Origin: Gammaproteobacteria bacterium | GTDB taxonomy: Bacteria; Pseudomonadota; Gammaproteobacteria; SZUA-140 | Assembly (NCBI GenBank): GCA_026982565.1 | Contig: JALSGV010000146.1 | Coordinates: 1-47,492, forward strand | Direction: 5' to 3' | DNA length: 47,492 bases | The notes under the pieces: model-generated | What the model was told of the DNA's origin: nothing | What the model saw: only the letters and a program-made list of their open reading frames with translations | Databases searched by the model: none | Translations under genes and position numbers: made by a program | Part shown: positions 20,336-44,823 of the stretch, in pieces | How the letters are laid out: every line of letters starts with the position of its first letter | How positions within the stretch are numbered: position 1 is the first letter of the stretch

Positions 20336-20860
20336 ATGTCATCACAGCCAGACCAGCGTATTCTATTGAAATATCTCGTGGCCTCGCCACTTTTCTTCTT
20401 CATTGGAACCGTACACGGCGTCATACAGGTGATCCCGCCAGTGCGCGCGTGGCTGGACTCCATTGGCAGCCCCTACGGCGGCCCCGGGCACATGATCGAC
20501 CCCCTCGCCCACGCCCATATCAACGTCGTGGGCGGTGTCGTGCTGTTGTGCATGGCGGTGACCTATTATCTGTTTCAGGCCATTTCCGGACGCCCCGTCT
20601 TTTCCCGGCGCCTGGTCAACCATTCCTTTTGGTGGACGGTCATCGGTATTACCGGGTTCTATTCCACCCTGCTGTTCTTTGGCATCCGGGAAGGACAATA
20701 CCTGCTGGAAGGCAACTCTCTGGCCGCCGAGGAGCTGCACGCCATCTATGGCCCCATCATTGCCACCGTATCCACCGTCATGGGCATTGGGTTCTGGGTA
20801 TTCTTCACCAACGTATTCATGACGGCCAAGGCCGTTTTTTCGCGGCGCCATGCCCCCTGA
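20336..20860 (+). CDS. Half-size heme-copper oxidase subunit I-like membrane protein
   Basis: 174 residues, about four membrane helices. Residues 57-68 (DPLAHAHINVVG) align with the segment of CcoN-type subunit I that binds both hemes (His-x-His), here H59 and H61. The following YYLFQAISGRPVFSRRLVNH and FWW match the conserved stretch after that helix (compare LYSLALANFHYWF in the full subunit at 36137-37546). H27 and H52 are further candidates. No CuB histidines are present, so it is not a complete oxidase; it could be a small heme b protein or sensor. The next gene overlaps its stop by 11 bases. A similar protein is encoded at 42675-43205. Confidence 0.6.
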   Translation: MSSQPDQRILLKYLVASPLFFFIGTVHGVIQVIPPVRAWLDSIGSPYGGPGHMIDPLAHAHINVVGGVVLLCMAVTYYLFQAISGRPVFSRRLVNHSFWWTVIGITGFYSTLLFFGIREGQYLLEGNSLAAEELHAIYGPIIATVSTVMGIGFWVFFTNVFMTAKAVFSRRHAP

Positions 20861-24450: not shown

Positions 24451-25758
24451 ATGACACCCATGAGCAGTAATACGACATTCAAGGACATCCCAATCACCCA
24501 GGAAATAAAGAAGCCAAGGCTGTCATGGGTACGCATGGCTTCACGCATCGGTTTCCTGGCACTCCTGGTGCTGATTCCCACGACCGGCCTGTTCCGCATC
24601 GACCTTTCTTCCGGCTTCGTCATACTCAACCATCAGATCTGGTTTTCCGATTTCTTCATCGTGTTCGGCTTCTGGCTCGCCATCGCCAGCCTGCTCATTC
24701 TGCTGTATTCTTCTTTTGGAACGGTATTCTGCGGCTGGGCCTGTCCACAGAATACCATGTCGACGTGGGCCAACAAAACGACATCCAGGCTGTTGGGCAA
24801 GCGCGCCTTGATCAACTGGGGCGATGACGAATCCAATGTCAAAGTCTCCTCCGGAAAAAACAAGAAGAAAAACTGGTTCCTGCTCTTTCTCAGTATTCTC
24901 GGCATGTCCATGCTGGTTTCCCTGCTGCCCCTGCTGTATTTCTTTCCACCGGGCGCCATCTGGTCCTTTATCACCTTCCAGGAAGATCCCAGACTGGCAG
25001 GCTCGCTGCACTGGATCTACACAGTCTTCGTTTTCATCGCCTTCGCCAACATCGCCGTGGTCAGACACTATGTGTGCCGCTACATGTGCATCTATCGCAT
25101 CTGGCAATTCCTGTTCAAGACCCGGGATACCCTGCATATCGAATACGATGCCGGGCGGGGCGCCGAGTGCAGCAAATGTAATTACTGCGCCACGGTCTGC
25201 CCCGTGGATACGGATCCACGCAACACAGCGACTTACGACAGCTGCACCAACTGCGGGGAATGCATTACGGCATGTGACAACCTGCACCGCAAGGACGGCG
25301 TCAAGGGCCTGTTGCATTACAAATTCGGCCGGCGCACAGACAAGGAAGACATCAAGAACCGGATGAGCCTGGCTTCCTTCGCACGGCGCGCCTCCTGGGT
25401 ATTGCCGGTCTTCGTGCTGGCCATCGGTATGTTCATTTGGGGACTGGTCATCTATAAACCCTACCACTTGTCCGTCTACCGTGCCGACATCCGCCATGGC
25501 GATAAGATCCAGAACTACCGCATCAACATCGCCAACAAACGCTATGAGCCGGCGACTGTGAGCTTTTCGGTCGCCGGAATTTCCGATCAACTGTACGAGC
25601 TAGACACCGAGCAGGTGACTTTTGAGACCGCAACCCGCAAGGATCTCAATCTCTATATCGACGATTCTCTGGAACCTGGGCTTTATACCATTCGGGTAAC
25701 CGCTGTCTCACAAGACGGCTGGCAGGAAAGCTACAATTTTCAACACTATGTACGCTAG
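24451..25758 (+). CDS. ccoG: CcoG/FixG/RdxA cytochrome oxidase accessory ferredoxin protein
   Basis: 435-residue membrane iron-sulfur protein that supports copper delivery to cbb3 oxidases as a Cu(II) reductase. Helices at about 35-50, 65-90, 145-165, 190-205 and 313-335. The TM motif FCGWACPQ (93-100) and the HYVCRYMCIY pair are family hallmarks. Two [4Fe-4S] sites are complete: C240, C243, C246, C250 and C265, C268, C271, C275. The C-terminal FixG immunoglobulin-like domain spans about 345-435. It lies 8-13 kb from the cbb3-like oxidase on the other strand and is followed by two membrane-associated proteins. No clear Shine-Dalgarno before the ATG; 24460 is an alternative. Confidence 0.9.
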   Translation: MTPMSSNTTFKDIPITQEIKKPRLSWVRMASRIGFLALLVLIPTTGLFRIDLSSGFVILNHQIWFSDFFIVFGFWLAIASLLILLYSSFGTVFCGWACPQNTMSTWANKTTSRLLGKRALINWGDDESNVKVSSGKNKKKNWFLLFLSILGMSMLVSLLPLLYFFPPGAIWSFITFQEDPRLAGSLHWIYTVFVFIAFANIAVVRHYVCRYMCIYRIWQFLFKTRDTLHIEYDAGRGAECSKCNYCATVCPVDTDPRNTATYDSCTNCGECITACDNLHRKDGVKGLLHYKFGRRTDKEDIKNRMSLASFARRASWVLPVFVLAIGMFIWGLVIYKPYHLSVYRADIRHGDKIQNYRINIANKRYEPATVSFSVAGISDQLYELDTEQVTFETATRKDLNLYIDDSLEPGLYTIRVTAVSQDGWQESYNFQHYVR

Positions 25759-25761
25759 AGC

Positions 25762-26202
25762 ATGATAACCATGAACGATACACCGCAAAACAAGAAACCC
25801 TTGGTCAATCCCATCGATGAAGTAGAATGGGGAGAGGAGCGCGAGGATCACCTGGGTTACAAAAATGCCAATGACCGAATAGAGAAACGTGGCCTGGAAG
25901 ACTGGGAAATGGTCGAATACATGTCCGAGAAATCGGATCACAAGATTCCCTACTGGTTCATTGCACTGTTCTTCATTCTTTTGCTGGTTGCCGTGGGCCT
26001 GACCTTCCCCTTCTGGGGTGTGCGGCCCGGATTCGAGCGCCCCTGGTTTGACTGGGGTATACCGGCTGCCGTTGCCTGGGTGGTCAGCATGGCAGCAGTT
26101 ATCTACTACTTGGTTGATTACCGCATATCCCGCGCCGAGAAAAAGGAGCAGGAGGAAAAAGAAAAGGCAGCGGCAGCCAAGGATAATACGGGTACTGAAT
26201 AA
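25762..26202 (+). CDS. Two-TM protein in the ccoG operon
   Basis: 146 residues; start three bases after the ccoG stop, so co-transcribed. A hydrophilic N-terminus (1-70) rich in acid residues, then helices YWFIALFFILLLVAVGLTFP (about 74-93) and PAAVAWVVSMAAVIYYLV (about 110-128), and a charged Glu/Lys tail. Its loop PFWGVRPGFERPWFDWG resembles the segment after the first helix in the 217-residue protein at 34373-35026 (MPIWGQRPTAEL), suggesting a shared fold. Probably an assembly or accessory factor for the oxidase; not assignable to CcoH or CcoI. Confidence 0.6.
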   Translation: MITMNDTPQNKKPLVNPIDEVEWGEEREDHLGYKNANDRIEKRGLEDWEMVEYMSEKSDHKIPYWFIALFFILLLVAVGLTFPFWGVRPGFERPWFDWGIPAAVAWVVSMAAVIYYLVDYRISRAEKKEQEEKEKAAAAKDNTGTE

Positions 26203-27526: not shown

Positions 27527-30172
27527 TTATGACCCGCCCTTGTGCCGGACCACCTCATCCAAGGGGCTCAGTTCCCGCAGATAGATAAGATAGTTGTCGG
27601 CTTTTTCATGGTTTCCGGCTTCCCTTTCCAACTGCCACAATGCCTTGACCGCTCCGGCGTGATCCGGCCGTATGGACAGTATTTTCAACAACGCATCCCT
27701 ACGGCTCAGTCCCTTATTGGCAGCCTGCGCCAGGGACGCGAACATCTTGTCGGCAATGTCAAAACCGACCCAGCGGTCCCTGGGGTTGGCATCATAGGCA
27801 AAACGCATCAGTTGCTGCGCCTCCCGGGGTTTCTTGTTGAGCGTTGCGTTCAGACTGCGCATGGCCAGTTCCGATGCAATGTAGGCGCGCTCGAAGACTT
27901 CACGGCTATCTGGCGGCACCTGGAGCGCGCTGCTGGCCGCCTCTACAGGGGGACGCTGCTGCAGCAGGCGCAGAATCAGTAAACTCATATCGTGCGCCTG
28001 GGTATAACGTAACTGTGGCAGGCTGAATTCAATGCGTGGCGCCCATTCGTCCTGTACAGGACCGCTGGCAACGCGGATAGGACCCCAGTACCTCCCCAGC
28101 CAGGTCCAGGGGCCTTCTCCACCCGTGACCGCTGTTTGCTGCCAACCCCCCATGCGCGCCAGGTTGGCCAGCATAGCCGGAGCGCCCCCCAAGTCGCTGT
28201 GTGGTCCCACCATGGCCAGCCTGAGGCCATCGACAAACAGAACGGCCTGGGGAAAGACCTGCTGGAAACTTCTCAGGACGGTCTCCAGGGAACGGGTATC
28301 GAACTGGTTAAGCGCCAGCCATTGCACGAACAGGCCCTCTTCCGTGAGGCGCTCCCTGGCCCGCCTGAACTGCTGCACTGATAACAGGTTGCTGCGGCCC
28401 ACGAGATCAGGGTGGAACAGATCACCGATGATGACATCATAGCGTTGCGCTGCGGCGCGTAGAAATCGCCTGGCATCGTCGTGGCTCACCGCTATCTTGT
28501 CCATGACATCGGCATTCACCGGTGAGAAAAATGCGCTGGCGGCCTCGATGGCTCCGGCAGACAATTCCACCGACTCCGCCCTCAATTGCGGGAAATCCAG
28601 CGCACCCGCAGCCGTAATGCCAGTCCCCAGCCCCAGGAACAATACCTGACGTGGTTCCGGATGAAGCAGCAAAGGCAGGCGGGCCTGGTTTTTCTGAACG
28701 GTAACGGCCGTGGGTTCCGACGATGCATCCATGCGCCGCAGGTCGGACAGCAGCAAACGCTGGCCATCAGGCTGCTCCACCACATGGGTAATGGAAAGGA
28801 TATCTTCTTGTACGAACAGATCCCGGCTGTCAGCATGGGCCTTGGGCAACAGTTGGCTGACAGGCGGCATGGTGGCGACAGGATAGGCCAATGCGATCAA
28901 CAAGGGAGCAGCCAGCCAGCCCCTGCGCAACTGTGACCATTTCATGCCACAGGCAAAAAGCATGAGCGCTGCCAGGCTGATTGTTGCCGCAGTCCCCATA
29001 TAGGGCACCAGCAGAAAACCGGCAATGAGTACACCGAGGGCGGCCCCCACTGAGTTGGCGCCATAGAGCCAGGCCCCGGTAACAGCACCGGCCTGCGATC
29101 CGGCGCCTTCCTGTGTCAGATGCCGGTTCAGCATGGGTAACCAGGCGCCCAGTATCAAGGTGGTGGGCAGGGTCAACAGGGCCAGGGCCAGAAGCTGCGC
29201 TGTCATCGCCTCGCTGAGCGAATCGAAACGGGCATGATCCGCCCAGGCGGCCAACTCAGGCAAGCCCCAAAGACTCAGCAGCGCAAACAGGCCTGCGATG
29301 ATGGGAAACCAGCCCAGGCCATGCCGCAGGGAAATATGTTTTGCCAGCAAGCTGCCGAGCCCCAGACCGACCAGGAAAACGAACAGGATGATAGCCAGGA
29401 CATACTCCGTCCGCAGCAGGATCATTCCATAGAATCTCGTCCAACCCAACTGAAGGATCAGGGCGGCTGCGCCGATTCCGGCATACAACAAAAGGGCCGA
29501 CCATGGTGGTATTGAATGCGCCTTGCTCCGGGCCACAGGGTGGCCTGCTGGCTTTGCCTTTATTGCAATGAGAAAGGCGCAAACCGCGATTGCCATGCCC
29601 AGCAATGCGACGAGCCTGATGGATACCACCCAACCCATTTCAGGCAGCAACAACAAGGGCAGCAAAGCCCCCAGTGCCCCACCGAGGGTATTGAGTCCGT
29701 AGATAGATGCAAGGCTGACTGGTGTTGCCTCGAAGCACTTGAGAATCAGTGGAAAACCTATTCCCAGCGCCATTGCCGGTACGAACAGGATCAGGAAAGC
29801 AACGGTCGACTGCAGGAGATACCATTCCGACAAGGGTGCATTGACTGCGACTTGGCTCAGCAACGCGTCGACCGAGGCAAACAGGCCGGGCATCATGAAT
29901 GCAAATAGAGCAACCGCCCCTTCGAGCAAGGCAAAAACGATAAGCGGCCTGGAGAACTTCCTTGCCAACCAGGTCCCGACGAAGCTCCCCAGCCCCAGGC
30001 CCGACATAAAGGCCGCCAGGGTAATGATTACGCCAAAGATACTGGCGCCGAATAAGATGGACAGCATGCGGACCCACAATACTTCATAGGTCACACCGAC
30101 CACACCGGAAAGGAAATAGAGACAGAGCAAAAGCCATGGCCAGCTTTTGCCTCTATAGTCAGATACGCCCAT
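27527..30172 (-). CDS. Fused multi-TM transporter and spermidine synthase-like protein
   Basis: 881 residues. The first half has about 12 or more helices with transporter-like G-rich turns (SGLGLGSFVGTWLARKF, MALGIGFPLILK, LNTLGGALGALLPLLL). The second half holds a spermidine-synthase fold: VLFLGLGTGITAAGALDFP is the nucleotide-binding loop, AESVELSAGAIEAA supplies the acidic ribose ligand, and YDVIIGDLFHPDLVGRS is the gate-type Asp motif. The C-terminus has TPR-like helices (AQQLMRFAYDANPRDRW). Fused MFS/spermidine synthase proteins are widespread but their reaction is unproven; polyamine synthesis coupled to export is one idea. The leftward oxidase-accessory genes lie upstream. Confidence 0.8.
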   Translation of the reverse strand: MGVSDYRGKSWPWLLLCLYFLSGVVGVTYEVLWVRMLSILFGASIFGVIITLAAFMSGLGLGSFVGTWLARKFSRPLIVFALLEGAVALFAFMMPGLFASVDALLSQVAVNAPLSEWYLLQSTVAFLILFVPAMALGIGFPLILKCFEATPVSLASIYGLNTLGGALGALLPLLLLPEMGWVVSIRLVALLGMAIAVCAFLIAIKAKPAGHPVARSKAHSIPPWSALLLYAGIGAAALILQLGWTRFYGMILLRTEYVLAIILFVFLVGLGLGSLLAKHISLRHGLGWFPIIAGLFALLSLWGLPELAAWADHARFDSLSEAMTAQLLALALLTLPTTLILGAWLPMLNRHLTQEGAGSQAGAVTGAWLYGANSVGAALGVLIAGFLLVPYMGTAATISLAALMLFACGMKWSQLRRGWLAAPLLIALAYPVATMPPVSQLLPKAHADSRDLFVQEDILSITHVVEQPDGQRLLLSDLRRMDASSEPTAVTVQKNQARLPLLLHPEPRQVLFLGLGTGITAAGALDFPQLRAESVELSAGAIEAASAFFSPVNADVMDKIAVSHDDARRFLRAAAQRYDVIIGDLFHPDLVGRSNLLSVQQFRRARERLTEEGLFVQWLALNQFDTRSLETVLRSFQQVFPQAVLFVDGLRLAMVGPHSDLGGAPAMLANLARMGGWQQTAVTGGEGPWTWLGRYWGPIRVASGPVQDEWAPRIEFSLPQLRYTQAHDMSLLILRLLQQRPPVEAASSALQVPPDSREVFERAYIASELAMRSLNATLNKKPREAQQLMRFAYDANPRDRWVGFDIADKMFASLAQAANKGLSRRDALLKILSIRPDHAGAVKALWQLEREAGNHEKADNYLIYLRELSPLDEVVRHKGGS

Positions 30173-32258: not shown

Positions 32259-32747
32259 CTACTCTTCCTTGCCAGTTGCCTGTGCTGACGCTTGTGATGT
32301 TTTTTGATACCGTTTGTGCAGAAGCCTCTTATCCGTCCTGCCATATGTCTTCTTGACCAGGATTTCACCAACGACGCCTCCTATCGCGGCAAATTCCATG
32401 GCCAGGATCAAAACCAGAAACCAGTATCCCATGGGCAGCACAACGCCAAACTCAGGCGCCACTGGCATGTTATTGACTTCATAATAGCTCAGGATACGCA
32501 CTGGCAATGGCGCCAGATGCGCCAGGATCTTACCGCCCAGTCCAAAAATCAGGGAAACCACTATCCCTGCCAGAAACGGAACGAAAAACAGATTGACGAC
32601 CCACAGTGGACTGAATGTTCCAACGCCATAGAACATCTCGAGGTTGACACCCGTCACCTTATCGCCGATGTAGATGACAACCGATCCAGCCAGGATGGCC
32701 AAGGTGCCCATCCCTACATCCATCCATGTAACCCTGAATTTATACAT
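32259..32747 (-). CDS. Polytopic membrane protein of the accessory operon
   Basis: 162 residues, about four helices (DVGMGTLAILAGSVVIYIGD; LWVVNLFFVPFLAGIVVSLI; GVVLPMGYWFLVLILAMEFA) and a basic Lys/Arg-rich tail. No heme-ligand His within helices. Three-base gap before the next gene (SUMF1-like) and three bases after the cytochrome gene, so it is co-transcribed. Not recognised; probably an assembly or structural component. Confidence 0.55.
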   Translation of the reverse strand: MYKFRVTWMDVGMGTLAILAGSVVIYIGDKVTGVNLEMFYGVGTFSPLWVVNLFFVPFLAGIVVSLIFGLGGKILAHLAPLPVRILSYYEVNNMPVAPEFGVVLPMGYWFLVLILAMEFAAIGGVVGEILVKKTYGRTDKRLLHKRYQKTSQASAQATGKEE

Positions 32748-32750
32748 TGT

Positions 32751-33233
32751 TTATTGCTGATATTTTTTGCCGGTCAGTTTTTCATATTCGGCCTTTTTGG
32801 TTTCCTCCAGATACCAGTCCTCCACCTTCAGGCTTGCCAGATAAGCCGCTAATGTCCGGCGATCATCTTCTGGCAGATGAGCATATGATGGCATTTTATA
32901 GGTATTGCTCAGACGGGTTGGAAGGATATCCTGCGGATTCTCCGCTGACAGGTAGTTATAGAACCATTCCTCATTTCTGATGGCTCCAATTCCGTCTAGG
33001 GCGGGCGCTGGAACGCTGGCCATCATATTCCGTACCATCCACAGAGTATGGCAATCTGAACACTTATTGGCCTTGTATATCTTATCCGCCTTCTGTTGAA
33101 GCTCCTGAGATGCTGTCGTGTAAAAGGGGATGCCAGGATCCGGGTTTTCGATTTCCTGATAGCCTCTGTAGACAACCATCACCACCACCAATACGGCAAT
33201 AGTAATATAGATATTCCGTTCACCTCTTTTCAT
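32751..33233 (-). CDS. Membrane-anchored monoheme cytochrome c
   Basis: 160 residues. N-terminal anchor helix (about 8-22, IYITIAVLVVVMVVY) with the rest periplasmic. Heme site C58-S-D-C61-H62 in KANKCSDCHTLWMVRN; the axial Met is probably in YKMPSYAHL. The heme domain resembles class I cytochromes of CcoO/NorC-like subunits. Start overlaps the CcoS-like gene by 14 bases. It could bring electrons to the oxidase encoded just upstream, or be a subunit. Confidence 0.75.
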   Translation of the reverse strand: MKRGERNIYITIAVLVVVMVVYRGYQEIENPDPGIPFYTTASQELQQKADKIYKANKCSDCHTLWMVRNMMASVPAPALDGIGAIRNEEWFYNYLSAENPQDILPTRLSNTYKMPSYAHLPEDDRRTLAAYLASLKVEDWYLEETKKAEYEKLTGKKYQQ

Positions 33234-33507
33234 ATTTCTTGTTCAGGCGCTCCGCCTTCTCTTTGAGATATTTTTGCCGCTTTGCAACCTGCTCGGCATG
33301 AACCTCCTGCATCTTTTTAAACTCGTCCTCGTCCATTTTGTCCTTATCGTCTTCATCGAACACCACATACTTGATGTCCTCGTCGAACTGTTCGTTCTTG
33401 GCGGCCCATCGCAGACCGAAAACCGCAGCGATGAGTATACCCGCCGCAACAACGATCCAGACATAAATCGTCCAGCCATCAGGCAAATTTTCTATGAAAT
33501 TTTTCAT
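33220..33507 (-). CDS. CcoS-like cbb3 oxidase assembly protein
   Basis: 95 residues. One N-terminal helix (about 15-33, VWIVVAAGILIAAVFG) followed by LRWAAKNEQFDEDIKYVVFD. This matches the CcoS/FixS pattern W-A-[VA]-x-[SN]-x-Q-F-D-D followed by an acidic I-L-F-D-D-D end. The C-terminal half is a longer charged coiled-coil tail than in typical CcoS (about 50-60 residues), so the assignment is as a relative. CcoS is needed for cofactor insertion into cbb3 oxidases, consistent with the oxidase operon next door. Confidence 0.65.
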   Translation of the reverse strand: MKNFIENLPDGWTIYVWIVVAAGILIAAVFGLRWAAKNEQFDEDIKYVVFDEDDKDKMDEDEFKKMQEVHAEQVAKRQKYLKEKAERLNKKYEKR

Positions 33508-33523
33508 GATTCATTCCTCCGAA

Positions 33524-33871
33524 TTATACGAGATAGCCGTCGATCAGCTGGAGATAGCCAAAAAATACCGCAATGAATATGCTGAGGATGATCGCCCCCA
33601 TCATATATTTTTCACCCGTCTTGAGCCCCCCCTTGTTCTTATCCTTGGGCCAGTATATGAATATGATCATCGCATAGACGATCAAGGAAACGATCAGGAA
33701 ACCGAAAATAAAATTACTGGTCCCCTGGGAACGGAGGCTCTCGATACTGAGGTCCATGCCCCATAACAAATCCTTATTGTCAGTCTGAGCCTGAACCAGA
33801 AAATTAAAAATCGGGTCCCCTATGCTAGCGGCCCAAAATGTAGTCAGTCTATCTATAAATAAGGAGAACAT
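33524..33871 (-). CDS. Two-TM protein heading the accessory operon
   Basis: 115 residues. Hydrophobic segments at about 53-72 (FIFGFLIVSLIVYAMIIF) and 92-110 (GAIILSIFIAVFFGYLQL), with a weakly hydrophobic N-terminus. No family recognised. First gene of the leftward unit that continues with the CcoS-like gene 16 bases on. The region 33872-34118 upstream is AT-rich and should carry its promoter, but I see no clear -10/-35 pair. Confidence 0.5.
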   Translation of the reverse strand: MFSLFIDRLTTFWAASIGDPIFNFLVQAQTDNKDLLWGMDLSIESLRSQGTSNFIFGFLIVSLIVYAMIIFIYWPKDKNKGGLKTGEKYMMGAIILSIFIAVFFGYLQLIDGYLV

Positions 33872-34118: not shown

Positions 34119-34148
34119 AAAAGATGCCGCTATAAAGCGGCATCTTTT
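34119..34148. terminator. Bidirectional terminator after the oxidase operon
   Basis: agatgccgct (34122-34131) and agcggcatct (34136-34145) form a perfect stem with loop ataa; A runs on the left and T runs on the right make it work both ways. It separates the oxidase operon (ending at 34188) from the accessory operon (starting at 33871). Confidence 0.88.
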
Positions 34149-34187: not shown

Positions 34188-34349
34188 TTAATTGAAAACG
34201 TCGTCCTCATGTACAGTCTTTGCTGCTTCCTCTGCTTTGTTCTTGGCCCAATATTTGTCCACCAGCGCCATGCCGTACCAGGCAGGAGCGATGAGCACCA
34301 AGAGTATGAGAAGCCCAAAAATCAAAGGTGGATAATCTACATCAATCAT
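34188..34349 (-). CDS. CcoQ-like 53-residue membrane subunit
   Basis: Reads MIDVDYPPLI, helix IFGLLILLVLIAPAWYGMAL, then VDKYWAKNKAEEAAK and an acidic end. gggaga lies 12 bases before the ATG at 34349. A small one-helix protein at the 3' end of a cbb3-like operon fits the place of CcoQ/FixQ, though the sequence is not clearly homologous. The terminator follows 40 bases later. Confidence 0.6.
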   Translation of the reverse strand: MIDVDYPPLIFGLLILLVLIAPAWYGMALVDKYWAKNKAEEAAKTVHEDDVFN

Positions 34350-34372
34350 TTTACCGTTCTCCCAGTATTTGG

Positions 34373-35026
34373 TTATGACGCTTTAGACATGTCAGGCTTC
34401 TGCGAGAAGTGCGGCAGACGCTTGCATACGATTACCATTGCTATTATAAAATAACTCACGTAGAAAACGTCGATGGTGTAACCTTTATCCCACCATGGTT
34501 GTACACGTTCGCGCTTTCCATCGGGACGCCAGCTTCCTGAGAAATTCGCCAGCACGACTTGGTCACCGATGACGTTGTAACTCTCAGGACCATAGGTGCC
34601 ACCACCACCGGCAACGATTTCACGAATGCCCGGCGCTGCCAGTTGCAGATCCTCCCAGGAGATCGGATGGCGATCCAGCAAACCTGGCAGTCTGGAATCC
34701 TCTGCATTCCTGTGTACCTCCATTGCCCTCTCGGTGAGATAGGCAATCTTTTCAGGTCCAGTGGCCAGCTTTTGCACCTCGGGTGAATCCATGAGCTCCA
34801 CCATTGGCGCATACAGCTCTGCGGTAGGCCTCTGTCCCCAAATCGGCATGGTGATCATGAATGCCGTGAGGATGATCAGTGCGATCAACCATGTCAAAGG
34901 ATAGGGCAAGCGGTTATTGCCTTCCCACAAACCACCAGGTTTTTCAGACTCCCAGAGTTCCAGAGCCTTTCTCGCTTCCTCTTCATCTGCCAAGCAGTAT
35001 AGAGGATTATCCATTTTCCAAGCCAT
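34373..35026 (-). CDS. Heme-less two-TM oxidase-operon protein (CcoP-position)
   Basis: 217 residues. First helix at about 44-63 (PLTWLIALIILTAFMITMP), a large loop of about 120 residues (periplasmic by the usual charge rule), and a second helix at about 180-200 (DVFYVSYFIIAMVIVCKRL). No CxxCH, so it is not a cytochrome, though it sits where CcoP would be. The loop contains a G-rich turn (IVAGGGGTYGPESYNVIG) and a Trp-rich stretch. Good Shine-Dalgarno (gggggaga) before the ATG; 15 bases after the cytochrome gene. Unknown family, likely subunit III-like or structural. Confidence 0.6.
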   Translation of the reverse strand: MAWKMDNPLYCLADEEEARKALELWESEKPGGLWEGNNRLPYPLTWLIALIILTAFMITMPIWGQRPTAELYAPMVELMDSPEVQKLATGPEKIAYLTERAMEVHRNAEDSRLPGLLDRHPISWEDLQLAAPGIREIVAGGGGTYGPESYNVIGDQVVLANFSGSWRPDGKRERVQPWWDKGYTIDVFYVSYFIIAMVIVCKRLPHFSQKPDMSKAS

Positions 35027-35041
35027 TATTATCTCCCCCGT

Positions 35042-35998
35042 TTATTTTAAGCTGGTTAGAATCCAATCGATCAGCGCACGTATTTCACTATCACGCGCAT
35101 ACTCCGGCACTTCAGGCGGATAAGCGACCTCACCCTTTCTATATGCTTCGTACTCCTTGCGCCACTTGGCATAATCGATGGGGTTGCCATTCACATCCAC
35201 CTTACCCCAGAGATAATCGAATCGGGGCATGATAGAATTGGGTTGCACCAGCCTTGGGTTGAAGAAATGCATCATCATCCATTCACGCGATGAATTTCTG
35301 GATGCAACGTGGAGAAGATCCGGGGCTTTGCGGTCAGAACCAAAAGCAGTCGGCATCTCACCGTTCATGTCTCCCTGGTACGGAGGCCACCCGAACACCT
35401 GCCAGTCCTGCGTATGTTCAGGCAGCAGGGTGTGGCACCACCAGCACTGCTCCGTGGTGTAGACCTGCTTGCCCTTTCCGACATAGCGTGTGTTCTCATC
35501 TCCAGCGGTTGCCAGGGTAGCCTCAACGGTCCAACCCCGTGTTACAGACGCAAGTTCAGGATAGGCCCATTCCTCGCCATTCACATCGGCATAGCTGATG
35601 GTGAAGACCGCGCCGGCCTCTTTGCTGGCCTGATCTATCTTGCCCTTGCTGAATCCCAGGCTCTTGACCGTTGGACCCAGATTGTTAGGGTGATTGATAG
35701 GTGACGCCAATGGTGTGCCTGGCTTGTAGACGTAGGCGCGCACTGGCGGATCGATTGTTTCTCCGGTTTTGGGATCCTTGTCCAAGATAACGGTCAGCGG
35801 TTTTCCATCTCCCCGCACCAAGGGATCTTCGAACGACCACCCCATGGTTCGCCCGTTTGACAAGGCCTTGTCCAGACCTACCCATGTCGACTCGGCAGAA
35901 ATGAAGTCGAAACTTGGGAAAAACAAGGTAATCGACATGGACAGGCCAAACATCCCGCCGATTCCTGCACATCCTAGCTTATAATTTTGAAAAGCCAC
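35042..35998 (-). CDS. CcoO-like monoheme cytochrome c subunit
   Basis: 318 residues, GTG start at 35998 with ggggagga ten bases before it. N-terminal helix (about 10-27) anchors a large periplasmic domain. The heme site is C185-W-W-C188-H189 in TTEQCWWCHTLLPE, and the axial Met is likely in NSIMPRFDYLWG. The local order (heme site, long loop, N-S-x-M-P) is that of CcoO/FixO, which is itself monoheme. Extra N-terminal domain (about 40-170) is larger than usual. It should pass electrons to the b-type heme in the catalytic subunit. An intra-operon hairpin separates it from the subunit I gene. Confidence 0.75.
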   Translation of the reverse strand: MAFQNYKLGCAGIGGMFGLSMSITLFFPSFDFISAESTWVGLDKALSNGRTMGWSFEDPLVRGDGKPLTVILDKDPKTGETIDPPVRAYVYKPGTPLASPINHPNNLGPTVKSLGFSKGKIDQASKEAGAVFTISYADVNGEEWAYPELASVTRGWTVEATLATAGDENTRYVGKGKQVYTTEQCWWCHTLLPEHTQDWQVFGWPPYQGDMNGEMPTAFGSDRKAPDLLHVASRNSSREWMMMHFFNPRLVQPNSIMPRFDYLWGKVDVNGNPIDYAKWRKEYEAYRKGEVAYPPEVPEYARDSEIRALIDWILTSLK

Positions 35999-36030
35999 TT
36001 ATACTTCCTCCCCTAGTTTTTTATTACCCT

Positions 36031-36058
36031 TCCCCACCGGCCAGATCGCCGGTGGGGA
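36031..36058. other. Intra-operon hairpin between subunit I and cytochrome c genes
   Basis: tccccaccggc pairs with gccggtgggga (11 bp, loop six bases). The T run lies only on the rightward side, where no gene reads toward it, so for the leftward operon this is not a standard terminator. It may adjust subunit ratio by mRNA processing or stabilisation. Confidence 0.65.
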
Positions 36059-36136
36059 TTTTTTAAGGGTTGATGCTCATTTCATTCGTTTTATGAAGCA
36101 TCAAATGTTATTGCTTGTTGAGATAGATGCCGGTAC

Positions 36137-37546
36137 TTATCTCTCGTAAGCCAGCTCATGTGCATAGCGGCCCTTCGGCACTACCGTACCTTCACGGGCA
36201 GTCATATACATGTTGTACAGCCAGACCACGTTACCGGTAAATACCATGGTGCCACCGATCCAGCGAGCGATCATGTATGGGTGCTCTGCGATTACCACGT
36301 CAATATATGGTACTTCGTAGATCTTACCACCACCCTGAATCAGGCCCGCGATTGTCATGGAGATCCAGTAGATGCAGAACCCGATGATGACAAACCAGTA
36401 GTGGAAGTTGGCCAATGCCAGAGAATAGAGCTTGCGCTTCAGCATTTGCTGCAGACCGAAGTAGACCGCTGCAATCTCCAGGAAACTGGACATACCCAGC
36501 AAGGCCAAGTGAGCGTGTGCAACGATCCAGCCCGTGCCATGCACGTACCAGTTAATGGCTCGCGTCTGTTGAAACCCACCCTGCATGTTCAGGGGGATGG
36601 CCAAGAGTACACCCGTGATGGAGAACTTGGTTTCAATGTTCTCGACAAACATGCTCCAACGCCCTTTGATGGTGAGGAGAATATTGGCCACGAATGCCAC
36701 CGCCGGGATAAGGATCAATACACCTTCCACTGAAGCAAAGGACTTCAACCACTCGGGCAGCGGCGCAGACAGCAGATGATGCGAAGCAGGAGTGGAATAG
36801 AAAGCAATGATCGCCCAGAAATGCAGGTGACCGATACGATGCGAGTAGAGGGGGTTACCTGACAATTTGGGAATCGTGTAGTACGCGATAGCCGCAGCAA
36901 CCGGCGTAATCCACAGCCCCAGTACATTATGGGCGAACCAGAATGTCAGGTAGCCTTCCGTCAGACCGGTAAGGTTGAACAGCTCGGCGGAGTTACCTAC
37001 CAGGAACACGATGATCACCATAAAGATACATGCACCGAAGAACCAGTTGGTAATGTAAATACCCTGTGTCTTACGCTGGGCTATGGTCATCCATACATTG
37101 ATACCCAAGGGTAGCAGGACACCAAAGACCACCACCAAGTCGATAGGCCAGATCAAATCTGAATACTCGCGACCAGAAGTGAAACCCAGCCACAGCAGAA
37201 ACAGCCCCAGCGACAAACCCACATTCCAAAGGAAGGCAGTCCATACACCTAGCTTCTCAGACCACAGACGGGTATTACCCAACGCCGGCGTCATATACAT
37301 CATGGTCATGGCGAACGCCATGGAGATCCAGCCCAGAATTACCGCGAGCACGTGTACCTGACGCATGTGACCAAATGCAAAAAGCTCGGTTCCCGTTACA
37401 AAATCCGGGAATGCGAGCTTGGCAGCATTGAAGGAACCCAGACCGGTCCCGATGATAAACCACAGAATTGACGAAAAACCGAAGTAGATTGTTGCTGTCC
37501 CTGGCGGGATGTCTTCGTTTTTCGCTGTTAGATATTTAAACAGCAT
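36137..37546 (-). CDS. Divergent C-family (cbb3-like) heme-copper oxidase catalytic subunit
   Basis: 469 residues, about 12 helices. H65 (FGHMRQVHVLAV) should bind low-spin heme b. H206 in FWFAHNVLGLW, H256 and H257 (STPASHHLLSAPLPEW) should bind CuB. H344 and H346 (WIVAHAHLALLG) bind high-spin and low-spin heme. Y250 lies 44 residues after H206, the distance of the cross-linked His-Tyr pair in cbb3 oxidases. The Glu that follows the first metal His in nitric oxide reductases is absent (Gly at +4), so oxygen reduction is favoured. The C-terminus matches CcoN (MAYNxxMT-like end WLYNMYMTAREG). Good aggagg Shine-Dalgarno. Overall sequence is distinct from classic CcoN. Confidence 0.85.
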   Translation of the reverse strand: MLFKYLTAKNEDIPPGTATIYFGFSSILWFIIGTGLGSFNAAKLAFPDFVTGTELFAFGHMRQVHVLAVILGWISMAFAMTMMYMTPALGNTRLWSEKLGVWTAFLWNVGLSLGLFLLWLGFTSGREYSDLIWPIDLVVVFGVLLPLGINVWMTIAQRKTQGIYITNWFFGACIFMVIIVFLVGNSAELFNLTGLTEGYLTFWFAHNVLGLWITPVAAAIAYYTIPKLSGNPLYSHRIGHLHFWAIIAFYSTPASHHLLSAPLPEWLKSFASVEGVLILIPAVAFVANILLTIKGRWSMFVENIETKFSITGVLLAIPLNMQGGFQQTRAINWYVHGTGWIVAHAHLALLGMSSFLEIAAVYFGLQQMLKRKLYSLALANFHYWFVIIGFCIYWISMTIAGLIQGGGKIYEVPYIDVVIAEHPYMIARWIGGTMVFTGNVVWLYNMYMTAREGTVVPKGRYAHELAYER

Positions 37547-37623
37547 CCTTCACGCCCTCCTAAAAATTACTTTCTTGTAAATTTATTATCGATGTCGATT
37601 CAGCTAGCGATCAGTCACGCTGC

Positions 37624-37713
37624 TCATTCTTCCATCTTAGTCAACAGATACCATGAAAACCACATGCTTGAAAAAGCGAGAATCACACCACATGCGCCGG
37701 CGAATGCAGCCAT
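37624..37713 (-). CDS. 29-residue membrane miniprotein before the oxidase gene
   Basis: Reads MAAFAGACGVILAFSSMW, then FSWYLLTKMEE. One helix with an aromatic cluster and a charged C-terminus. A strong ggggaggtgtgtt precedes the ATG. It is encoded 77 bases before the catalytic subunit on the same strand, so a micro-subunit of the oxidase is likely. A similarly sized ORF with a near-identical ribosome site lies at 45005-45100. Confidence 0.6.
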   Translation of the reverse strand: MAAFAGACGVILAFSSMWFSWYLLTKMEE

Positions 37714-37776
37714 AACACACCTCCCCTTGATAATTTAGATTGTTATCTTCAAGACAGAAATCGTTTCAGCCTTATC

Positions 37777-38067
37777 TTACCAGCCCGTATTGTCGCCCTT
37801 GGCCTCCAGCGCGCCATGTCTGGACATCCCGATATAGACGATCACGGCAAAGGCAAAACCAAAGACCAGCATCACTGCGTTGACAAACCCATTGAACGTC
37901 GTGGGATCGTAGGCCTCGCCATACCAGCCTCCCCAGCTTTCAAAAGGCCCGCGTCCAACCGCGCACATCACGGCAGCGCCAAATACGCTTCCGTTGCCCA
38001 TGCCGACCGTGAATGCAGGTATGAGCAGCGCAAAGAATAAGCGTCCTAAGGTGAGCTTGTTTTCCAT
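37777..38067 (-). CDS. First gene of the oxidase operon: two-TM protein
   Basis: 96 residues. Helices at about 8-35 (LFFALLIPAFTVGMGNGSVF) and 62-82 (FVNAVMLVFGFAFAVIVYIG), with a Gly/Trp-rich loop (GRGPFESWGGWYGEAYD). Start at 38067 is supported by agagggggg seven bases upstream; the frame continues upstream to 38163 without a ribosome site. Unknown family. By position it may be a subunit or assembly factor of the cbb3-like oxidase. Confidence 0.6.
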   Translation of the reverse strand: MENKLTLGRLFFALLIPAFTVGMGNGSVFGAAVMCAVGRGPFESWGGWYGEAYDPTTFNGFVNAVMLVFGFAFAVIVYIGMSRHGALEAKGDNTGW

Positions 38068-38700
38068 ATTCCCCCCTCTTCTGGTTATTTTATTTTTGAC
38101 CGGAAAGTCCGGCTTCCGCGTAGTGACTCCGACCGGGATCCTATCCCCTCCCGATCTGATCACTACTTACCAGCCACGGCAGCCTAAGACTTCCAACCTC
38201 GATAACGACTGTTTGAATTCCAGCTTAGTCCGTCACTTGGCTATTATCATGCGAATCGTCAGACATGACTTCCCACATAGCGATAAATTATAGACCTAAT
38301 TCCAGATATTGCAACTGTTCCTCAGGATTAAATCCATACTGATGACACCTATCCGTCAGCACTGTCAACAAGCGCTGCGACACACCTCATTCATTCCGCA
38401 ACAGCCTATCATAATCGCGTCAAATCAATATTTTATTTTTATAAAGCCGTGGCGGCAAGCAAGCCGACCGCAGTCCTATGCAAAATCTGAGCCCCCATAT
38501 AACCGCCCTCCCAATAACCAAGGGCAGCCATCAGGATTGCTGTTTTTTTACGGCTAATTTTCTCAATTGAAACATCATTCAGACCGCGCCAGCCGACATC
38601 ACCCCACGATTCAATTGTGCTTCGACACACAATTTTTTTGACCTCGGCACGTGATATGCGAGACTTATGCTTCGTACATCAAACATCGCAATCAAAGACT
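38068..38700. other. Divergent intergenic region upstream of the oxidase operon
   Basis: AT-rich 630-base gap between the leftward oxidase operon and the rightward 79-residue protein. It must hold the oxidase promoter, but I see no FNR/ANR-type ttgat-N4-atcaa site and no strong -10/-35 pair. A leftward open frame at 38439-38630 lacks a ribosome site and is not supported as a gene. Confidence 0.5.
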
Positions 38701-38940
38701 ATGCAGATCAAGGAAATTATAATCTATGGCCTCGTGGGCATCAGCTCACTCACCATGCTGGCCTACACGGTCCACATGTTCATCGGGGGGATGGTCAGCG
38801 AACAGACCGAAAATCTCGTCATGCTCGGTGCCGTACTGATCGGGGCTGTCGTCCTCGGTATTCTCGCATGGGATGTCATCAGGCGCAGACGCAACTACGA
38901 AGCTTATATGGCTGAATCCAAGGAGGATGACAATACCTGA
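38701..38940 (+). CDS. 79-residue two-TM protein
   Basis: Start at the ATG at 38701 (MQIKEIIIYGLVG). Helices IIIYGLVGISSLTMLAYTVH (about 6-26) and VMLGAVLIGAVVLGILAW (about 43-60), then a basic stretch DVIRRRRNY and an acidic end. No good Shine-Dalgarno; the frame could start upstream at 38617. Unknown family. Divergent from the oxidase operon and possibly controlled with it. Confidence 0.5.
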   Translation: MQIKEIIIYGLVGISSLTMLAYTVHMFIGGMVSEQTENLVMLGAVLIGAVVLGILAWDVIRRRRNYEAYMAESKEDDNT

Positions 38941-42181: not shown

Positions 42182-42688
42182 TCATCCCAGATCTTTATTG
42201 ATGATGCGCTTGAGCACAGGCTCCAGTTCGTTGTAAAGCAGCCGGCCGGGGCGTTTGAAGCGCACGATGCCCTCGGAATCGATGATAAAGGTCCAGGGAT
42301 CTCCCTTGACGCGATAGGCGATGAATGCGCCCGGGTTCTGATACTGATCCATGTGAAGAAAAATGACATCATCTCCATATTTCTGCAGCATGGCCTTCAA
42401 CATCTGTAACTGCTTGTCGCAAACAGTACAATGTCCGGGCGTGGCGAACTCAATCAGGATGGTCTTGCCCTCCTTGAGGGCTTCATCCAGAGAGTACTGA
42501 TACATGCGCTCATCGGGATAGCGATAGGTTGTAATCCTGCTGAAATCTCCGCCAACATCGGGAAGCGTCAAGGTCCTGATGCTGGGCGCGGGACTCCCCA
42601 CACGCAATGTTCCCTCCGGAGACTCCATGCACGCTGCAAGTCCAGCAACCATAGCAAGCACCAAAAATATTGTTTTAATTCTGCCCAT
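42182..42688 (-). CDS. Thioredoxin-like lipoprotein
   Basis: 168 residues. Lipoprotein signal IFLVLAMVAGLAACMESPEG with C20. A periplasmic thioredoxin fold follows: ILIEFATPGHCTVCDKQLQM gives the redox pair C87-x-x-C90, then VIFLHMDQYQNPGAF and cis-Pro-like GDPWTFIIDSEG. It could keep cytochrome heme-site cysteines or a copper site reduced in the neighbouring proteins, as TlpA and Sco relatives do. Starts 14 bases inside the end of the half-size oxidase gene (coupled). Shine-Dalgarno gggaaa. Confidence 0.85.
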   Translation of the reverse strand: MGRIKTIFLVLAMVAGLAACMESPEGTLRVGSPAPSIRTLTLPDVGGDFSRITTYRYPDERMYQYSLDEALKEGKTILIEFATPGHCTVCDKQLQMLKAMLQKYGDDVIFLHMDQYQNPGAFIAYRVKGDPWTFIIDSEGIVRFKRPGRLLYNELEPVLKRIINKDLG

Positions 42689-43205
42689 AGCTTTTTTCCC
42701 ATCCAGAACAAGTCTTGAAAAGGTTATACGCCCAGATGATATTGGCAAGCAGGACCAAACTGCCGAAGATGCCCATGGTTCCAAGAATCGGCTTAACCAG
42801 TTTTTCAACCTCTTCGAGCGGCATGGTCTGACCTGAAATCCCACCGACCACACCAGCAATGGTAAAAAACACCACCATCCCCACAAGGCCGACATTATGA
42901 ATCCAGAAATGCACCTTGACCAGGCGCAGGCTATAGATGGGCCGCTTGATGAGGCGTGGCACGATGTAATAGACCGAGGCAAAAATGGCCATTTCAACCC
43001 AGCCCAGGAGATTGATGTGGGTATGGGCACGCACGATCAGGTCACCGTGTATACGGTGATCGACAAAATAGCGAAACTCCGGGATACCGCCCATCAATAC
43101 CCCCCATGTAAACCCGATGATACTGTAGGTGATACAGGCGTAGATAAACCATAACGTATATCGTCGGTATTCCAGCTCATTCTCGTGAAGCCACGGCTCA
43201 TTCAT
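42675..43205 (-). CDS. Half-size heme-copper oxidase subunit I-like protein, second paralogue
   Basis: 176 residues, about four helices. VRAHTHINLLGWVEMAIFAS with H61 and H63 matches the His-x-His heme helix of CcoN, and PRLIKRPIYSLRLVKVHFWI matches the following conserved segment of CcoN. Additional His: H50, H53, H99 and H103. No CuB cluster. The protein thus corresponds to only the C-terminal helices of subunit I; a small heme-b membrane protein is the simplest reading. It is co-transcribed with an anchored cytochrome c (overlap eight bases) and a thioredoxin lipoprotein, so a membrane electron-transfer complex is likely. Its overall likeness to the protein at 20336-20860 is moderate. Confidence 0.65.
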   Translation of the reverse strand: MNEPWLHENELEYRRYTLWFIYACITYSIIGFTWGVLMGGIPEFRYFVDHRIHGDLIVRAHTHINLLGWVEMAIFASVYYIVPRLIKRPIYSLRLVKVHFWIHNVGLVGMVVFFTIAGVVGGISGQTMPLEEVEKLVKPILGTMGIFGSLVLLANIIWAYNLFKTCSGWEKSYGQN

Positions 43206-43791
43206 CGGCCTTCTCCTGCACCCCTTCCTCCTGCGGCTTGTCTCTTATGTCCTTGTATTTCTCTTTCCATTCTTGTGGTACGAACGAACCCACCATGGCA
43301 TCGATAAATTCGGAACGGCCTGGTGGTGGCGTTTTGGCTACAGAAGAGCCGGGATCAGCCTTCAACTCCGAGATGAAGATAGCCATGAGACGCAATTCCT
43401 CGTCCGACATTCGGGAGACATAGGCTGCCTCCTTGGGGGGATAGCCATGATCGATAGTTGGACCATGGTAGTATTTCTCAGGTTCACGCAGAAACTTCTC
43501 GATGCGTTCAGCAGTATATTTTGACCCCAACCCGTCCAGTGACAGACCCATGCTGGTTCCTGCACGCAATGCGCGGTGGCAGGCATTACAGTTGGCCTTG
43601 CGGTAAATCTCTGAACCCTTCAAGCCATCTTCAGAAAAGTCAAAGAACGTCGTTTGGGTATACATGGGTTCGTCAGACGTGAGTCGAACGGTTTCCAGCA
43701 CGATATATCCGATCATGGCGAGTGCGAAAAACACGCCGAAGATGATAAACAGGATTTTCTCGCCGGATTTGAGGGGTTGTTTACTGCTCAT
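43198..43791 (-). CDS. Membrane-anchored monoheme cytochrome c
   Basis: 197 residues. Anchor helix at about 13-33 (ILFIIFGVFFALAMIGYIVL). Heme site C68-N-A-C71-H72 in YRKANCNACHRALRAG; axial Met candidates lie in VSRMSDEELR. The arrangement (short cytoplasmic start, one TM, one heme) is like NorC and the anchored cytochrome at 32751. First gene of the four-gene respiratory operon. Shine-Dalgarno weak. Confidence 0.8.
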   Translation of the reverse strand: MSSKQPLKSGEKILFIIFGVFFALAMIGYIVLETVRLTSDEPMYTQTTFFDFSEDGLKGSEIYRKANCNACHRALRAGTSMGLSLDGLGSKYTAERIEKFLREPEKYYHGPTIDHGYPPKEAAYVSRMSDEELRLMAIFISELKADPGSSVAKTPPPGRSEFIDAMVGSFVPQEWKEKYKDIRDKPQEEGVQEKADE

Positions 43792-44034: not shown

Positions 44035-44823
44035 TCAGTTCATGTAGGGCCTGAAGAAGTTGCCATTAGACAAAGGGTTGGCATTGGTCAGATAGGCCGC
44101 AGCATTATGGATATCCTCATCAGACATCTTTTTTGCGACCGCCTGCATCTGGCCCATGGGATCGTTTGTACGGCTGCCATCGCGCCACTGCTTCAGCTGA
44201 TTGACCAGATAGACATACTTCTGCTGGCCTATCATCGGATAGACGGGTGGCGCACCACGTCCGGCATAACCATGGCAGGACTTGCACGCTGGCACACCCT
44301 TGCCTGGACTGCCAAGATCCTTGGGAGCATTATAACCGTCACTTCTGACCGCGCTTCCGTATTCCACCAGCGCGCGTCCCTTGTATACCGTACCCACCTC
44401 AACGCCGGCCTCTTTTAGGGCAGCCAGGTCGGAGCCGAGATCAGTGGGTCTCAGGGCGGCCAGATAAGTCGACACATCGATCCGATCCTGCCTGGACAAA
44501 CCCTTGGCATTGGCATTCATGACAAACATGGTGGTGTCTTGACGCTTGTCTGATGCATAGTCTTCCAGCTGTTTGAAGAGGAAGCTGAAGAACTGACCGG
44601 CGATCATCGGCGTACCAAGATCGTCATTACCCGTACCTGTCTCACCGTGGCAACTGGTGCAGGCAGGCACATCGCCCTTACCGTTTTTGAAAATATTCTC
44701 ACCGTTGGCTTTGTTGCCGGTGCCCTTGGAATACATGCCTTCCGCAGCCATGACGCTGCTGGCGGTAAACGCAACACCAATGATCATGGCAATTGCTATC
44801 ACAACTGATTTTGCTTGTTGCAT
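44035..44823 (-). CDS. Diheme cytochrome c4-like protein
   Basis: 262 residues, periplasmic. Signal peptide cut after SVMA (about residue 26). Two class I heme domains: C55-T-S-C58-H59 (PACTSCHGETG) and C180-K-S-C183-H184 (PACKSCHGYAGRG), each followed by P-M-I-[AG]-[GQ]-Q and an axial Met in the late loop (MFVMNANAKGL and MQAVAKKMSDEDI). Such proteins carry electrons to cbb3-type oxidases, fitting the neighbourhood. Shine-Dalgarno gggaggagggg about seven bases before the ATG. A hairpin terminator follows. Confidence 0.9.
   Translation of the reverse strand: MQQAKSVVIAIAMIIGVAFTASSVMAAEGMYSKGTGNKANGENIFKNGKGDVPACTSCHGETGTGNDDLGTPMIAGQFFSFLFKQLEDYASDKRQDTTMFVMNANAKGLSRQDRIDVSTYLAALRPTDLGSDLAALKEAGVEVGTVYKGRALVEYGSAVRSDGYNAPKDLGSPGKGVPACKSCHGYAGRGAPPVYPMIGQQKYVYLVNQLKQWRDGSRTNDPMGQMQAVAKKMSDEDIHNAAAYLTNANPLSNGNFFRPYMN

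Follow-up and report, generated by a model that had tools for sequence, protein, structure and literature searches.

Electrons enter textbook cbb3 oxidases through the diheme subunit CcoP, and the K-channel is the only known proton-input channel of this family. The naming of a "distal" cbb3 form reportedly goes back to Ducluzeau 2008. "Proximal" and "distal" forms have been described in Zetaproteobacteria and Gallionellaceae (PMC7029218, PMC8788666, PMC10734462). In Ferrovum JA12, according to the available part of its description, only cbb3 subunits I and II are present and subunit III is missing (FERRO_02570/02560), and co-localised c-type cytochromes are proposed to stand in for it (PMC4725956). 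In Tenderia electrophaga a non-canonical "complex IV-2" that clusters with ACIII is among the most expressed genes, and canonical ccoNOPQ is weakly expressed (PMC5371394). Searching the literature for cbb3 oxidases without CcoP gave nothing relevant; the Ferrovum paper was found by another route.

The locus described here lies in a window of 47,492 nucleotides, the whole stretch of DNA analysed, from a Gammaproteobacteria bacterium (assembly GCA_026982565.1, contig JALSGV010000146.1). From its sequence, the operon encodes a distinct branch of the high-affinity cbb3 class, carried by iron- and electrode-oxidising bacteria; a heme-less relative would take the place of the diheme subunit. The existence of the branch has been glimpsed before; its make-up had stayed unexplained. 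It seems to lack the CcoP hemes while keeping the anchor of that subunit, and several near-complete genomes apparently encode no other oxygen-reducing enzyme. Because the CcoP hemes seem to have been dropped and K-channel residues are changed, the branch offers a natural experiment on the purpose of CcoP and the K-channel, and the operon is a marker for iron- and electrode-oxidising bacteria, in which the downhill path of electrons remains poorly defined.

The oxidase operon and its catalytic subunit

The oxidase genes form one operon on the minus strand, running from 38067 to 34188 in the order 96-aa, 29-aa, CcoN-like, CcoO-like, 217-aa and 53-aa gene (Table 1). An intrinsic terminator follows, so that this span matches one likely transcription unit, and a terminator stands at the same place in most relatives where the 53-aa gene was found. 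The 96-aa gene lies upstream of subunit I in all 44 loci with enough flanking sequence, and both the CcoO-like and the 217-aa genes follow subunit I in 46 of 46 loci. The 29-aa ORF, with a conserved LAFSSMW core, recurs upstream of subunit I in nearly all related loci, which argues that it is a real gene. A re-reading of the region bears out the ORF positions of the original prediction, and the three tiny or small TM proteins that it listed are real, as judged by their presence across loci (44/44 for the 96-aa protein, nearly every locus for the 29-aa protein, 32/46 for the 53-aa protein). The hairpin between the CcoN-like and CcoO-like genes has counterparts in only part of the relatives, with differing sequences, and may act in mRNA processing or stability. 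On the opposite strand, just upstream of the operon, lies the gene for a small TM protein (38617-38940, +), kept as about 65 aa in relatives among Gammaproteobacteria and Zetaproteobacteria.

Table 1. Features of the oxidase operon and the surrounding module, in window coordinates
Feature	Position	Strand	Evidence and occurrence
Diheme cytochrome c, 262 aa, upstream part of module	44035..44823	-	Two CxxCH, Pfam; 32/44 loci
Membrane-anchored monoheme cytochrome c, 197 aa, upstream part of module	43198..43791	-	Cytochrom_C E=1.8e-8; 37/44 loci
Partial subunit-I-like protein, 176 aa, one HxH	42675..43205	-	COX1 positions 301-411, E=6.6e-18; 37/44 loci
96-aa protein, first gene of oxidase operon	37777..38067	-	Two predicted TM segments, conserved motif GMGNGSVF, alignment
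29-aa single-TM protein MAAFAGACGVILAFSSMWFSWYLLTKMEE, CcoQ/CcoM-sized	37624..37713	-	Read from sequence
CcoN-like catalytic subunit I, 469 aa	36137..37546	-	COX1 match, invariant ligands, tree
Strong hairpin between CcoN-like and CcoO-like genes	36031..36058	-	No U-run after the hairpin on this strand
CcoO-like monoheme cytochrome c, 318 aa, GTG start	35042..35998	-	FixO match
217-aa protein: CcoP TM2 motif, putative periplasmic domain, second TM	34373..35026	-	
53-aa single-TM protein, last operon gene	34188..34349	-	Detected in 32/46 loci
Intrinsic terminator closing the oxidase operon	34119..34148	-	3' of the 53-aa gene
115-aa membrane protein, second operon	33524..33871	-	Linked in 42/46 loci
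CcoS/FixS-like protein, 95 aa (cbb3 maturation)	33220..33507	-	FixS 24.7 bits, Pfam cut-off 23.1; 42/46 loci
Membrane-anchored monoheme cytochrome c, 160 aa	32751..33233	-	Cytochrom_C E=3e-6; 42/46 loci
162-aa multi-TM protein, no family	32259..32747	-	40/46 loci
Membrane-anchored FGE-sulfatase (SUMF1)-domain protein, 353 aa	31195..32256	-	Pfam E=5.7e-58; 42/46 loci
86-aa protein, signal-like N-terminus, one TM segment	30945..31205	-	42/46 loci
Membrane protein, about 120 aa	30238..30600	-	42/46 loci
CcoG/FixG-like polyferredoxin (cbb3 maturation)	24451..25758	+	Fer4_18, Fer4_5, weak FixG_C

The 469-aa protein matches the Pfam family COX1 (E=9e-74) and aligns over its full length with P. stutzeri CcoN (3mk7, E=3.5e-63), its best solved relative; the match with NorB (4xyd) reaches only E=0.006, and the ccoN model TIGR00780 gives 224.6 bits, below the cut-off of 583. 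H65, H206, Y250, H256, H257, H344 and H346 align with P. stutzeri H60, H207, Y251, H257, H258, H345 and H347. The six heme and CuB histidines are invariant in the clade, and the putative cross-link tyrosine, which lies in helix VII and not in helix VI, aligns with Y251 in all clade sequences; its distance of 44 from the histidine is the same as in P. stutzeri (H207/Y251). A CcoN-like subunit with all of these histidines and Y250 at +44 had been proposed from the sequence of the window, and the alignment agrees. The CcoO-like gene also corresponds to its proposed identity as a monoheme CcoO: the protein matches FixO over residues 175-299 (E=3e-15), with a single CxxCH, present in 67 of 67 orthologues, in a conserved CWWCHTLLPE. 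Between its TM anchor and heme domain lies an extra domain of roughly 120 residues. Structure prediction gives this domain (residues about 65-172) high confidence and models the heme domain poorly, and a PDB search with the predicted extra domain found no matching solved structure.

A maximum-likelihood tree of subunit I was built from 52 rows, with canonical CcoN, a second cbb3 clade (Burkholderiales and plasmids) and NorB taken in. The orthologues of the 469-aa protein form one clade (support 100/98) on a long stem of about 2.5 substitutions per site, and canonical CcoN, the second cbb3 clade and NorB form separate clades of their own (each 100/100). The branching order of the three cbb3 clades has a support of 86/8, and NorB is their outgroup, some 5 substitutions per site away; a larger quick tree recovers the same clade. 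Subunit I thus belongs to a C-family branch that is monophyletic and separate from both canonical CcoN and NorB, and a neighbourhood survey of 46 loci finds the same companion genes throughout, both as had been anticipated. Placement inside ordinary CcoN was rejected on the separate clade, and placement inside the nitric oxide reductases on the tree and the poor NorB match.

The branch occurs, with the same partners, in Tenderia-like Gammaproteobacteria, Burkholderiales (Ferrovaceae) and Zetaproteobacteria, and partner genes are constant across these three proteobacterial lineages. A scan of named genomes identified 65 loci (69-95% identity) from uncultured Gammaproteobacteria, biocathode and vent bins included, from Ferrovaceae/Betaproteobacteria and from Mariprofundaceae/Zetaproteobacteria; a Ferrovaceae locus, L043, is 77% identical. 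Clade-profile scores are bimodal over 300 genomes from the order of genome G038, 12 of them scoring above 950 bits and the rest at or below 271. A profile of the 217-aa protein, run over 398 Pseudomonadota genomes, matches only the genome of the window and 43 genomes of three families, which we read as Zetaproteobacteria, since several share coordinates and contig numbers with Zetaproteobacterial records, as G196 C122 does with the Mariprofundaceae locus L044.

P. stutzeri S240, Y317, T321 and E323 are replaced by G, A, N and Q without exception in the clade. We take S240 and Y317 to be K-channel residues in cbb3; 26 of 26 canonical CcoN have S and Y there, whereas 20 of 20 clade members have G239 and A316. 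P. stutzeri Y223, T293, N289 and Y251 are kept (Y222, T292, N288 and Y250 in the window), the E125 position is D, and two new invariant histidines, H236 and H240 (window numbering), lie in the same stretch as the channel residues. The second cbb3 clade has Q at E323 and Ser at T321 and keeps S240 and Y317. The loss of canonical K-channel residues could impair proton pumping.

The 217-residue subunit and the CcoP hemes

The original prediction described the operon as lacking CcoP and the 217-aa protein as a heme-less two-TM protein. No CxxCH is present in any of its 63 orthologues. Weak but significant FixP_N matches were found in four relatives (E between 5e-5 and 3e-4; one exceeds the curated cut-off), in frames of 216-231 aa that are orthologues of the 217-aa gene and all lie directly after the CcoO-like gene. 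Comparison of the 217-aa family with CcoP by hhalign, using a small set of four true CcoP and one unrelated diheme protein, yields E=2.5e-5 for about 80 residues that span the second CcoP TM with its flanks; a reversed control gives E=0.03, and the other small subunits tested have no match. Both families share the motif G-I-x-E-x-NN-x-LP. Pfam finds no match in the window copy, for which the predicted structure is weak (pLDDT 69) and a PDB fold search with the model found no match. Because the CcoP TM2 is kept and CxxCH is absent from the 63 orthologues, the 217-aa protein is best read as a heme-losing CcoP relative, and a CcoP relative without hemes is its most likely identity. The most economical reading is a CcoP relative from which the first TM and both hemes would have been lost and to which a C-terminal TM would have been added. 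The description as heme-less therefore stands, with kinship to CcoP added; "without CcoP" holds for the diheme protein, for which the genome search found no candidate, and does not hold for the family, to which the 217-aa gene most likely belongs.

A hidden diheme CcoP was rejected after a FixP_N search of the rest of the genome, a 91% complete assembly, gave no FixP_N/CcoP match. Among the family members searched, a canonical FixP_N match is absent except in relative G008, which carries canonical ccoN and ccoP in addition. G008 is what lends some appeal to an ordinary CcoN with its CcoP encoded elsewhere, but the genome search and the position of the clade outside canonical CcoN make this very improbable. 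The 217-aa protein might instead be an unrelated accessory subunit that resembles CcoP TM2, with CcoP truly absent. The similarity is indeed limited to one TM region and flank, and neither Pfam nor the fold search recognised the window copy; against this stand the FixP_N matches in four orthologues, all directly after the CcoO-like gene, the gap between the hhalign value and its reversed control, and the common motif. We consider an unrelated subunit a minority possibility, with perhaps one chance in a handful or slightly better, and prefer descent from CcoP.

Behind the CcoG-like gene, a 146-aa two-TM protein (25762..26202, +) has a CcoP-TM2-like anchor in common with the 217-aa protein. Its Zetaproteobacterial homologues match the 217-aa profile at E about 1e-5, and one of them adjoins a small monoheme cytochrome.

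The wider module and its probable place in respiration

The conserved module extends beyond the span 34188-38067. A second operon lies 3' of the oxidase genes in 42 of 46 loci (40 of 46 for its 162-aa gene) and is not downstream in the other four. Its 160-aa cytochrome has one CxxCH in 51 orthologues and is a candidate electron-entry replacement for the CcoP hemes. In a Zetaproteobacterium, a CcoG-like gene is located downstream of the module. After the module, a membrane protein of ~880 aa with a spermidine-synthase-like domain (27527-30172, -) is present in Gammaproteobacteria and Zetaproteobacteria.

Short proteins (about 175 aa) with one HxH, whose COX1 match is confined to the C-terminal part (positions 301-420), are encoded at 42675-43205 (-) and 20336-20860 (+) and at G000:C42:24514-24879. 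Most relatives have two families of them, the first linked to the oxidase module together with a monoheme cytochrome; these proteins might bind a single heme.

Neither cytochrome bd nor a second full-length heme-copper oxidase was found in the genome of the window (91% complete) or in relatives G003, G005, G007, G009 and G011 (95-99% complete), so the enzyme is probably the main oxygen reductase of these organisms, and O2 reduction would be its natural role unless they respire something else. In seven Burkholderiales loci the 96-aa gene is immediately preceded by a complete ACIII operon, actAB1B2CDEF. Linkage to the oxidase is seen only in Burkholderiales and not at the window; ACIII of the genome studied here is on another contig (C24). 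ACIII-oxidase supercomplexes are known with aa3 (PMC8361435), which makes a physical partnership of ACIII with this type of oxidase plausible. The electron source would be iron or cathode oxidation, judging from the organisms that carry the operon.

The whole is best explained, with a probability of about 0.75, as a C-family O2 reductase with a heme-less CcoP relative and a rebuilt K-type route that probably serves as main oxidase. This C-family heme-copper oxygen reductase would form a separate branch, apparently shared horizontally. Subunit I, which has the ligands, would contain the His-Tyr pair and bind heme b, heme b3 and CuB. Fe(II) oxidation, cathode oxidation or ACIII would supply electrons to periplasmic c-type cytochromes, which would pass them to the single CcoO-like heme, and the membrane-anchored monoheme cytochrome of the next operon may help entry, doing the job of the CcoP hemes. 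The 217-aa subunit, similar to CcoP in one TM, would retain the CcoP anchor as a structural piece after loss of both hemes. Protons may follow a K-type route in which the inner residues, observed to be changed, have been rebuilt, and the enzyme would probably serve as the main terminal oxidase of these lithoautotrophs. A fuller picture is possible, though we hold it tentatively: a dedicated oxidase of iron- and electrode-oxidisers with the CcoP hemes abandoned and the proton channel rebuilt, joined to ACIII in a supercomplex and equipped with small subunits and membrane-anchored monoheme cytochromes of its own.

Two other functions were weighed against this main reading. Membership of the heme-copper superfamily and the replacement of canonical CcoN E323 would also suit a nitric oxide reductase or NO-dismutase-like enzyme; yet the clade retains Y250, a position occupied by Ser or Ala in the four NorB sequences used, a branch of some 5 substitutions per site separates it from NorB, and several near-complete relatives show no other full-length heme-copper or bd oxidase, which together leave this reading very improbable. 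That O2 is reduced without proton pumping, by a low-coupling oxidase suited to a small energy drop, is suggested by G, A, N and Q at the S240, Y317, T321 and E323 positions throughout the clade; Y222, T292, N288 and Y250 are nevertheless kept, and the new invariant H236 and H240 in the same stretch could rebuild the path, and we regard loss of pumping as unlikely. A K-type route with rebuilt inner residues is the preferred reading.

Comparison with described oxidases

The sampled Zetaproteobacterial genomes contain only two cbb3 forms, which fits the two of PMC7029218, and by elimination the window branch is probably the "distal" cbb3 of Zetaproteobacteria and Gallionellaceae. Like the "distal" form of Zetaproteobacteria, Sideroxydans and Gallionellaceae, it is a second form beside the canonical one with a different subunit composition. 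By its description, "complex IV-2" of Tenderia is a candidate counterpart of the operon. The second cbb3 clade (e.g. Paraburkholderia aromaticivorans pBN2) is likewise C-family with Q at E323, but it is a separate 100/100 clade that keeps S240 and Y317 and has another gene neighbourhood; some of its members apparently have a fused CcoN-CcoO. The ACIII-aa3 supercomplex of Flavobacterium johnsoniae also brings ACIII and an oxidase together, as here only gene adjacency in Burkholderiales suggests; its oxidase is an A-family aa3, whereas the window enzyme is C-family.

With canonical CcoNOQP (P. stutzeri 3mk7/5djq) the window enzyme shares the subunit I family, the heme and CuB ligands, the helix-VII Tyr, a monoheme CcoO and the CcoS- and CcoG-like factors. 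It differs in having the putative heme-less 217-aa relative instead of diheme CcoP, an extra CcoO domain, extra small subunits, and replacements of S240, Y317 and E323. The unnamed branch with its own subunit set that was originally predicted is upheld as a C-family branch with constant subunits; the type itself had been seen earlier, in Ferrovum JA12, as the available part of its description indicates (PMC4725956). The Ferrovum locus numbers fit the window gene order, the comparison being with the published description, and that part of the description recognises neither the CcoP-like gene nor the wider module. The new elements here are the likely CcoP relative without hemes, the conserved module in full, the altered proton-channel residues and the linkage to ACIII.
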